A DNA stretch of 64,000 nt. It comes from Nitrospirales bacterium LBB_01 (GTDB taxonomy: Bacteria; Nitrospirota; Thermodesulfovibrionia; Thermodesulfovibrionales; Magnetobacteriaceae). Every line of letters begins with the position of its first letter. Position 1 is the first letter of the stretch. The translations under genes were made by a program, and so were the position numbers. Location: the NCBI GenBank assembly GCA_004376055.2, contig CP049016.1, forward strand, positions 1,984,001 through 2,048,000, written 5' to 3'. Of the stretch, positions 26,925 through 30,449 are shown piece after piece. The notes under the pieces are model-generated. The model made no database searches. It saw nothing but the letters and a program-made list of their open reading frames with translations, and was not told the origin of the DNA.

Positions 26925-26993
26925 AAGCTCCTCTATAATATGTTATAATGAAGCAGTATGTCCAGCACAAAAAAAAGCATAAGAGGAGGACTT

Positions 26994-27209
26994 ATGGATG
27001 AAGATGTAGTCATATACGGAAAAGCCGGTTGACCTTACACTGAAAAAGCCAGGTCGGCTTACGGAGGCAATGCCATATACTTTGACGTTGTCCTTGATGA
27101 GGACAAGATGAATGAGATGCTAAAGTATTCCGGTGGAAGGAAAATTGTACCTATAATTCTGGAGGACGGCAATGTTACAGTTGGCTATGGCGGCACCTGA
27201 GGCGTTTAG
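26994..27209 (+). CDS. Glutaredoxin-like selenoprotein with two selenocysteines (UPYT and UGV-stop)
   Basis: The frame from ATG 26994, behind AGAGGAGGA, contains two in-frame TGA codons and ends at TAG 27209, giving 71 aa. The first TGA (27030) replaces the active-site Cys of a glutaredoxin motif: YGKAG-U-PYTEKARSAYGG. The second (27198) lies three codons before the end: TVGYGGT-U-GV-stop. The body IYFDVVLDEDKMNEMLKYSG and GGRKIVPIILEDGNVTVGYG keeps the glutaredoxin/thioredoxin fold with the cis-Pro loop IVP. Hairpins follow both TGA codons at SECIS-like distances. The arrangement matches the glutaredoxin-like family known as Uxx-star (seleno)proteins. A redox or peroxide-linked role is likely; partners are unknown. 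An upstream in-frame ATG (26958) is less likely. Confidence 0.85.
27046..27060 (+). promoter_or_regulatory. Putative SECIS hairpin for first UGA
   Basis: AAGCC (27046-27050) and GGCTT (27056-27060) pair around the loop AGGTC, 13 nt after TGA 27030-27032. The AGGUC loop resembles that of the E. coli fdhF SECIS, where SelB binds. Additional lower pairing CCT...AGG is possible. Confidence 0.7.
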
Positions 27210-27215
27210 ATTAAA

Positions 27216-27234
27216 AGCAGACAGTTTGTCTGTT
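27216..27234 (+). promoter_or_regulatory. Putative SECIS hairpin for second UGA
   Basis: CAGACA (27218-27223) and TGTCTG (27227-27232) form a stem with a GTT loop, extended by flanking G-U and A-T pairs. It lies 15 nt beyond TGA 27198-27200 and past the TAG stop, as expected for a C-terminal selenocysteine. It might instead be the gene's terminator hairpin. Confidence 0.55.
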
Positions 27235-27261: not shown

Positions 27262-28128
27262 CTAAACCACATCATTTAACGTGCTGTCTGAGTCTGTTTC
27301 CTGAGCTTGCATTTGCATTGCAAGTTCCTCTGATGCGGCACGAAGACGATGAAGCAGCCGTCTAATTATAAACATGAGAATATGGTAGGAGGCTTTGGGG
27401 TAGTCTTTCAGAAATTGCAGAAATTGCTCTCTGTCAAATTTCAGGAGTGTGGTCAACTCTTCACTGGTCACATTTGCCATGCGTCGTTGTGATTCAAATA
27501 TTGAAGAGACGCCAAAGACGTCATTTTTGGTTATTTTGTAGAGGAAAAACTCCTTGTCAGGGTTGTCAGGCGAGTCTTTGGTTACCTTAAGCGAACCTGA
27601 AACCACAGCGTAGAAACAATCAGCCTCTTCATTCTGAGCCACTATGCGGTCATACGGGCGGCATGTGACTTTTTCGCCAATGTAAGCCAGCGTATCTAAA
27701 ATATGCTCTGGAATCTCATGAAACATTTTTACACTTTTTAACATCTCACTTATATCGTGATACCGGGACTTTATATCGTGATACTTGTCAAGCTCCTTTG
27801 GCATTACCTCTTTGGTAATTTTATTTTGTAAAACAAGGATTTCACCAATAGGCGGTCTTAGCTTTTCCCTCTCTCTGGTTATCATGTCAACCTGCTCAGC
27901 GGTAAGAAAGCCTTTTCTTTGAGCGATTTCTTCAAATGAGTAGTCAGACATAGCGTGGAGGTTAAGTATCTCATACACTTCTTTCATGTTAAGGAATGAT
28001 AGCCTTGTTGCCATATCAATAAAAGACGGGGTTTCTTGACTCTGACACTTAAGCGCCTCAAGCATATCTTTTTCAGATATAAGGTTTCGTCTGACTAAAT
28101 ATGTCCCAAAAAAAGTCTCTGTTTCCAA
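27262..28128 (-). CDS. Cyclic-nucleotide-binding-domain protein with MshEN-like N-terminus
   Basis: 288 aa. Residues about 1-110 look like two short T2SSE-N/MshEN-type modules (FGTYLVRRNLISEKDMLEAL...; GFLTAEQVDMI...; PPIGEILVLQNKI). This kind of module in some proteins binds c-di-GMP. Residues about 130-265 form a CRP-like cyclic-nucleotide-binding barrel (MFHEIPEHIL...AVVSGSLKV...KNDVFGVSSIFE). No helix-turn-helix follows, so it is not a CRP-type transcription factor. The protein is cytoplasmic. Convergent with the selenoprotein gene. Which ligand it binds cannot be read from the sequence. Confidence 0.65.
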   Translation of the reverse strand: METETFFGTYLVRRNLISEKDMLEALKCQSQETPSFIDMATRLSFLNMKEVYEILNLHAMSDYSFEEIAQRKGFLTAEQVDMITREREKLRPPIGEILVLQNKITKEVMPKELDKYHDIKSRYHDISEMLKSVKMFHEIPEHILDTLAYIGEKVTCRPYDRIVAQNEEADCFYAVVSGSLKVTKDSPDNPDKEFFLYKITKNDVFGVSSIFESQRRMANVTSEELTTLLKFDREQFLQFLKDYPKASYHILMFIIRRLLHRLRAASEELAMQMQAQETDSDSTLNDVV

Positions 28129-28565: not shown

Positions 28566-30449
28566 ATGCAGCTTCAGATAACAGGAGAAAGCACTATCAA
28601 TGTAAACGATGAGGAGACTATATATGATGCGTTAAAGAGAAACGGTATATATCTTGTGGCACCGTGTGGGGGTAAAAGCACCTGCGGTAAGTGCAAAGTT
28701 AAGATACTGGATGGTAAAGCGGACTGTAAATCATACGGAAGATTACAGCAGAGGGAAAGACTTGAGGGAGTGGTGCTCTCCTGTCAGAGCACACTGAAAA
28801 CCCCTCTCTCAATAGAAATTCCAAAGCAGTCACGGCTTGTGTTGGGTGGTAAAATAGCCGTATCAATTTTTAAAGACACAACGGCGTATTTAAAATCATA
28901 CAACGTGGAGATTGACCCAATTGTAAAGCGCTCATTTTTACAGCTCCCGCCGCCAACCATATCTGATAACTTAAGCGACCTTGAGAGACTCAAACGAGCG
29001 TTAAGCGATAATGGTTTAGGACAGATGAGGTTTTCATACGAACTCGTAACCGGTATCTCTGACACTCTAAGGGAGGCAAACTGGTCTATTACACTCTCAT
29101 ACACCCAGCATGGTGATTTCAGCGAGGCACTGTCTTTGTTTTTAGCCGATGAGTGCTCAAGGCGCTATGGGCTTGCCATAGACATCGGAACCACAACGGT
29201 TGTGGTCTATCTGGTTGACCTTATAAGCGGAGAAATTATAGATATTGGTTCCACGTATAATTCACAAACCCGCTATGGCGATGACGTTATAACCAGAATC
29301 GTGTTTGCTACCGAGGGAGGCGGTCTGAATGACTTAAGACAGGCCGTAACGGAGGACATCAACACACTTGTAGAGTCCCTTACGGACAAACACCATATAA
29401 ACAGTTGTGAGATAGATGCTGCCGTAATTTCCGGTAACACCACGATGTCTCAGATATTTTGGGGACTCAATCCGGGTTCAATTCGTGAGGAGCCTTATAT
29501 TCCCACTGTTAATTACTTTCCCCTGTGGAGAGGCGCCGTGTCAGGATTAAAGATAAACCCTCAGTCGCCTGTTTATACGTCGCCATGTGTGGCAAGCTAC
29601 GTAGGAGGCGATATAACCACCGGAATTCTTGCATCCAAAATGCACAGAAACTCTGAGATTTCCCTGTTTATGGACATAGGTACAAACGCTGAGGTCGCAA
29701 TTGGTAACAACGAATGGATTATGACAGCCGCCTGTTCGGCAGGCCCGTGTTTTGAAGGCGGAGGTATTAAACACGGCATGAGGGCAACTGCCGGAGCAAT
29801 TGAATCTATAAAGATTGATCCAGCCACACTGGAGCCGATTATTGAAGTAATCGGAGGCGTACCGCCTATGGGAATATGCGGCTCTGGGATGATTGACGCA
29901 ATTACCGAGATGTTCAAAACCGGCATAATCAATCAAAAGGGATTGTTTAATCCAAAGAAATCAGAGCGTATCAGAGAAGGCGAGGAGGGTCTTGAGTACC
30001 TTATACACTCAGACGCTGCCGCTTCTCGTGACATAGTGCTTACCAAAGTGGATATTGAAAATCTGATACGGGCAAAGGCCGCTATTTTTGCCGGAGTATC
30101 GTTGCTTGTCAATGAGGTCGGCTTAACCCTTGACGTAATTGACAGGGTGTATGTGGCAGGAGGGTTTGGAAATTCTCTAAATGTAGCTAAAACCGTCATG
30201 TTGGGAATGATACCGGATTTGCCGGAGGAAAAATACACATTTTTAGGAAACACCTCTATCATAGGCGCATATCTTGCGCTGATGAGTGACACGCTCCGAG
30301 TGGAGCTTGAGGAAATATGTTCTAAGATGACCTATGTGGAGCTTTCAGTAGTTGGCGGCTATATGGATGAGTACATGTCTGCTATGTTTATTCCTCACAC
30401 GGATATGTCTAAGTTTCCAACAGTGGCTGCCGCTATGCTGGGGGGTTAA
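28566..30449 (+). CDS. 2Fe-2S ferredoxin / ASKHA ATPase, RACo-like corrinoid activator
   Basis: 627 aa. The N-terminal plant-type [2Fe-2S] domain has Cys34, Cys40, Cys43 and Cys73 (CGGKSTCGKC...LSC). A linker leads to an ASKHA ATPase fold starting YGLAIDIGTTTVVVYLVDL (about 200) with MDIGTNAEVAI, GICGSGMIDAI and VYVAGGFGNSL. This is the architecture of RACo/RamA-type proteins, which use ATP to reduce Co(II) corrinoid proteins back to the active Co(I) form for methyl transfer. No methyltransferase or corrinoid protein is nearby, so the partner is unknown. Length and domain order match the family. Confidence 0.85.
   Translation: MQLQITGESTINVNDEETIYDALKRNGIYLVAPCGGKSTCGKCKVKILDGKADCKSYGRLQQRERLEGVVLSCQSTLKTPLSIEIPKQSRLVLGGKIAVSIFKDTTAYLKSYNVEIDPIVKRSFLQLPPPTISDNLSDLERLKRALSDNGLGQMRFSYELVTGISDTLREANWSITLSYTQHGDFSEALSLFLADECSRRYGLAIDIGTTTVVVYLVDLISGEIIDIGSTYNSQTRYGDDVITRIVFATEGGGLNDLRQAVTEDINTLVESLTDKHHINSCEIDAAVISGNTTMSQIFWGLNPGSIREEPYIPTVNYFPLWRGAVSGLKINPQSPVYTSPCVASYVGGDITTGILASKMHRNSEISLFMDIGTNAEVAIGNNEWIMTAACSAGPCFEGGGIKHGMRATAGAIESIKIDPATLEPIIEVIGGVPPMGICGSGMIDAITEMFKTGIINQKGLFNPKKSERIREGEEGLEYLIHSDAAASRDIVLTKVDIENLIRAKAAIFAGVSLLVNEVGLTLDVIDRVYVAGGFGNSLNVAKTVMLGMIPDLPEEKYTFLGNTSIIGAYLALMSDTLRVELEEICSKMTYVELSVVGGYMDEYMSAMFIPHTDMSKFPTVAAAMLGG

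Follow-up and report, generated by a model that had tools for sequence, protein, structure and literature searches.

The window analyzed here is a 64,000-nucleotide stretch (C1:1984001-2048000) of the single-contig, 3.27-Mb genome of Nitrospirales bacterium LBB_01. At positions 26994-27209 it holds a real gene for a member of UXX-star family 1, in which two UGA codons are very probably both read as selenocysteine (Sec). The original prediction had placed here a reading frame behind a strong Shine-Dalgarno sequence, missed by normal gene calling, with a TGA at 27030 where the cysteine of a glutaredoxin CPYT motif belongs and a second TGA at 27198 followed by two codons and a stop. Direct reading bears out each of these points: UPYT is found at the first TGA, TGA GGC GTT TAG is read at 27198-27209, and gene calling with table 11 leaves the locus empty, with no ORF of at least 60 aa in 26994-27209. 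The features of the locus are as follows.

26984..26989, + strand: Shine-Dalgarno sequence AGGAGG, by direct reading, with the ATG 4 nt downstream
26994..27209, + strand: predicted UXX-star family 1 glutaredoxin-like double selenoprotein, 71 aa, from the NF041114 and NF041212 profiles and from homologs
27030..27032, + strand: UGA predicted to be read as Sec13, in UPYT; TGA in 45/49 copies, TGC (Cys) in 4/49
27046..27060, + strand: SECIS-like hairpin 1, AAGCC-AGGUC-GGCUU, loop 18 nt past the UGA, pairing conserved
27198..27200, + strand: UGA predicted to be read as Sec69, in GGTUGV-stop; TGA in 49/49 copies
27216..27234, + strand: SECIS-like hairpin 2, AGCAGACA-GUU-UGUCUGUU, 3' of the stop codon, loop 23 nt past the UGA

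From the ATG at 26994 to the TAG at 27207-27209, and with TGA written as U, the frame translates as MDEDVVIYGKAGUPYTEKARSAYGGNAIYFDVVLDEDKMNEMLKYSGGRKIVPIILEDGNVTVGYGGTUGV* (71 aa), the two TGAs lying in the contexts G-K-A-G-U-P-Y-T and G-G-T-U-G-V.

Several profile searches place this protein among the UXX-star selenoproteins, as had been predicted. The NF041114 profile ('UXX-star selenoprotein family 1') gives 101.4 bits against a cut-off of 72 (E 2.4e-29), with protein residues 5-71 aligned to positions 1-70 of 70, and the parent family NF041212 gives 76 bits against a cut-off of 66. The Pfam glutaredoxin domain PF00462 is matched at 25.3 bits (gathering score 22.9). Both traits of NF041114 are present, that is, a Sec UGA placed two residues ahead of the stop, and a second Sec in an N-terminal UxxT, and we found no departure from this family, also named 'Distant Grx-like protein 1'. 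UXX-star families 2 (NF041211) and 3 (NF047338) and the HUGP/GUXX-star fusion (NF045501) belong to the same superfamily and are matched at 44-52 bits, below their cut-offs of 97-325 bits. The protein also falls far under the cut-offs for classical glutaredoxin 3 (27.6 bits against 90 for TIGR02181). A 2022 review already contains Distant Grx-like protein 1 with UxxT (PMC9312934), and a 2026 review lists it under NF041114 with UxxT and 2 Sec, predicted with high confidence (PMC13188914 Table 1). The two-Sec form is thus less surprising than first thought, and the gene is a good example of a catalogued, computationally predicted family, not a new kind of protein. The selenoprotein glutaredoxin of Clostridium sp. 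OhILAs (C. oremlandii) likewise has Sec in its glutaredoxin active site near the N terminus; that type of glutaredoxin selenoprotein, however, has a UxxC motif and one Sec (PMC13188914 Table 1), whereas the protein described here combines UxxT with a C-terminal Sec.

NF041114 is matched above its cut-off in 45 of the 296 genomes of the phylum. We read these 45 matches directly, the window gene included, and added 4 copies from further contigs, the closest of which comes from a Nitrospirae MAG (L053), to give 49 copies. All 49 carry Cys or Sec (TGA) at both positions, in agreement with the original prediction. The second site is TGA in every copy, with no Cys among the 49 copies read, and the first is TGA in 45 and TGC (Cys) in L054, L055, L056 and L068. 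In five genomes (G178, G219, G172, G140, and G007) the profile match ended before the second TGA, which is present on direct reading. The two residues after this TGA are mostly GV, with some IV, MV or GL, and the stop that follows U-x-x in the 47 copies considered is TAA in 20, TAG in 16 and TGA in 10, with no immediate stop in 1. In these 10 copies (for example L031, L032, L033, L034, L050, and L069), two UGAs lie 9 nt apart, and the first should specify Sec and the second should end translation. Differences from relatives fall mainly at third codon positions throughout the frame, including both TGAs; a copy from the same genus (L065) shows 4, 6 and 16 differences at codon positions 1, 2 and 3. 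The invariant residues are K10, U/C13, P14, A19, V52, P53, I55, G64, G66, G67, and U69, several of which fall at glutaredoxin active-site and glutathione-site positions. Relatives also encode another glutaredoxin-like protein, probably exported, with UPYC in L080, L082, L083 and L084, where a TGA takes the place of the first Cys codon, and CPYC in L076 and L078; this is a different family, under the NF041114 cut-off.

The genome encodes the full apparatus for selenocysteine, and the earlier expectation of selA, selB, selD and tRNA-Sec is confirmed for all four. Profile searches recovered SelB (351 bits, cut-off 242), SelA (592 bits, cut-off 268), and SelD (317 bits, cut-off 125), and a tRNA-Sec with anticodon UCA scores 70.7 bits (cut-off 47); the other match above the cut-off in the tRNA search is a tRNA-Ser. 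The SelD gene (L011, C1:3237280-3238206) has one in-frame TGA, at a GUVSK motif, and selenophosphate synthetase is therefore likely a selenoprotein itself. Across the phylum, SelA is found in 40 of the 45 genomes that bear the family versus 88 of the 251 others (Fisher p 8e-12, kinship being ignored). The five family-bearing genomes without a SelA match (G021, G033, G041, G084, and G140) are all drafts, and the missing SelA probably, but not certainly, reflects their incompleteness. The alternative that the locus is a glutaredoxin pseudogene, decayed through two nonsense mutations, has as its sole support that two in-frame TGAs break the frame. Given that the same two TGAs occur in dozens of genera, that substitutions are mainly at third positions, and that the genome has full Sec machinery, the chance of such decay is negligible and we reject it.

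Each UGA is followed just downstream by a hairpin, with the loops at 18 and 23 nt. It had been predicted that these hairpins begin 13-15 nt after each TGA and that the first loop is AGGUC; RNA folding recovers both, and both are conserved in homologs. Hairpin 1 has a 5-bp stem that begins 13 nt after the first TGA. Taken alone, the window sequence is no more stable here than its shuffles (z about -0.6 to -1.0, not unusual), and the case for hairpin 1 is therefore one of conservation: its stem is paired in 93% across 42 distinct sequences, versus 16-64% when one arm is slid by 1-4 columns. It lies inside the coding frame, and the third-position changes at one of its pairs run from CG to TA and AT. 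Hairpin 2 has an 8-bp stem that begins 15 nt after the second TGA, with a GUU loop, and is more stable than expected by chance even in the window sequence alone (z -2.3 to -3.0). Nearly all of the 47 copies have a counterpart whose loop lies 17-27 nt past the TGA (mean score 11.1 versus 6.8 for shuffles). The 26 sequences with a 3-nt loop beginning in G pair almost without exception at 6 positions, most of which vary among several standard pair types. Because hairpin 2 lies beyond the stop codon, its conservation is not explicable by coding constraint. The two TGAs and the two hairpins are found again in 40 or more homologs, with changes on both sides of the hairpin pairs, and it is this conservation that raises both hairpins above chance.

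On the minus strand, hairpin 2 (27218-27232) precedes a T-rich tail, and it may double as the terminator of a convergent cyclic-nucleotide-binding-like gene at 27262-28128 on that strand, in which case both uses would hold. A different reading would have only the first UGA decoded as Sec while the second mostly terminates, giving a main product of 68 aa with one Sec and leaving the hairpin to serve another role, such as termination of this convergent gene. The minus-strand hairpin, 27232-27218 and then CTTTTAATCT, was indeed flagged as terminator-like. Nevertheless, termination at the second UGA is very unlikely: the codon is never TAA or TAG in any copy, two mostly conserved residues and a separate stop follow it (TAA or TAG in 36/47), and despite differing neighbours nearly every copy keeps the loop 17-27 nt after the TGA. 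We thus favor the decoding of both UGAs as Sec by way of SelB and the hairpins, a strong inference from the sequence and its homologs. Under this scheme the ribosome would initiate at 26994, SelB would bring Sec-tRNA and insert selenocysteine at UGA 27030 and again at UGA 27198, in each case recruited by the hairpin that follows, and translation would stop at UAG 27207. In essence the original prediction holds, the two redox centres it named being putative.

The surroundings of the gene contain no conserved operon partner; neighbour clusters are lineage-specific, with no conserved neighbour that points to a pathway, and upstream of the window gene only a genus-level diguanylate cyclase gene recurs. 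With respect to a mobile-element origin, there was no match in plasmids or phages, and none was confirmed in viral contigs. Further downstream, at 28566-30449 on the + strand, a 627-aa ORF combines a 2Fe-2S ferredoxin-like motif at its N terminus with an ASKHA-like body, and by eye it resembles activators of corrinoid proteins.

An AlphaFold2 model built with a 47-row alignment has a glutaredoxin fold (pLDDT 91). Its best structural matches are glutaredoxins and NrdH-redoxins, which align over about 63 residues with Z about 8-9 and stop at model residue 67. A search of solved structures for a close relative gave nothing nearer than distant glutaredoxins (best E 0.001). Since residues 1-67 of E. 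coli Grx3 are matched to model residues 3-67 (a correspondence of ranges, not a residue-level alignment), the UXX-star chain is predicted to end near the passage of the glutaredoxin GGxDD region into the last helix. Classical bacterial glutaredoxin 3 and NrdH share with the window protein the fold and the CPYx and VP motifs, whereas the window protein is without the third helix, has GGTUGV-stop in place of the GGxDD region, and carries Sec for Cys and Thr for the second active-site Cys of CPYC.

We tentatively propose an internal redox relay, which we consider possible, if short of probable. The protein would consist of the glutaredoxin beta-alpha-beta-alpha-beta-beta core without the last helix, and Sec13 of UPYT would be the nucleophile that attacks a disulfide. 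Sec69 would sit on a short tail where the glutathione-binding region of ordinary glutaredoxins ends; in place of glutathione, it would then resolve the intermediate by forming a Se-Se (or Se-S) bond. Such a relay would be self-contained, operating without glutathione and recharged by a thioredoxin-reductase-like enzyme. With the two models tried for glutathione synthesis, E. coli-type GshA (TIGR01434) and the GshB ATP-grasp (PF02955), there was no match in the genome, and a TrxB-like reductase is encoded, just under its cut-off (303 of 343 bits); both results are in line with Sec69 replacing glutathione. Still more cautiously, UXX-star family 1 as a whole might comprise glutathione-free glutaredoxins whose active-site Sec is resolved by a C-terminal Sec, set where glutathione once bound, to form an intramolecular diselenide; each Sec would be inserted by its own independent SECIS element, with both elements in a span of about 170 nt.

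The main rival to this relay accepts the same double selenoprotein and takes the two selenols to be metal or metalloid ligands, as in a Hg/As-type buffer or chaperone. In its favor, the published suggestion for UXX-star proteins is that they bind metal or an unknown substrate, with Sec as a possible metal ligand (PMC13188914). Nevertheless, the gene stands alone among lineage-specific neighbour clusters, the predicted fold and the UPYT site match a redox enzyme, and the glutaredoxin cis-Pro (VP) is invariant. We regard metal binding as somewhat less likely than the redox relay, which we retain as the preferred function.

The finding amounts to a known family correctly recognized in raw sequence. 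For a bacterial protein, two Sec in a chain of 71 residues makes for a high density of selenium, in a gene that ordinary gene calling misses, and hairpin 2, beyond the stop codon, offers a clean case of a SECIS element without coding constraint. The gene lies in a single-contig genome that has the full Sec apparatus. With its small, well-behaved predicted fold, a protein such as this could settle whether paired selenols of this kind serve an internal redox relay or metal binding.
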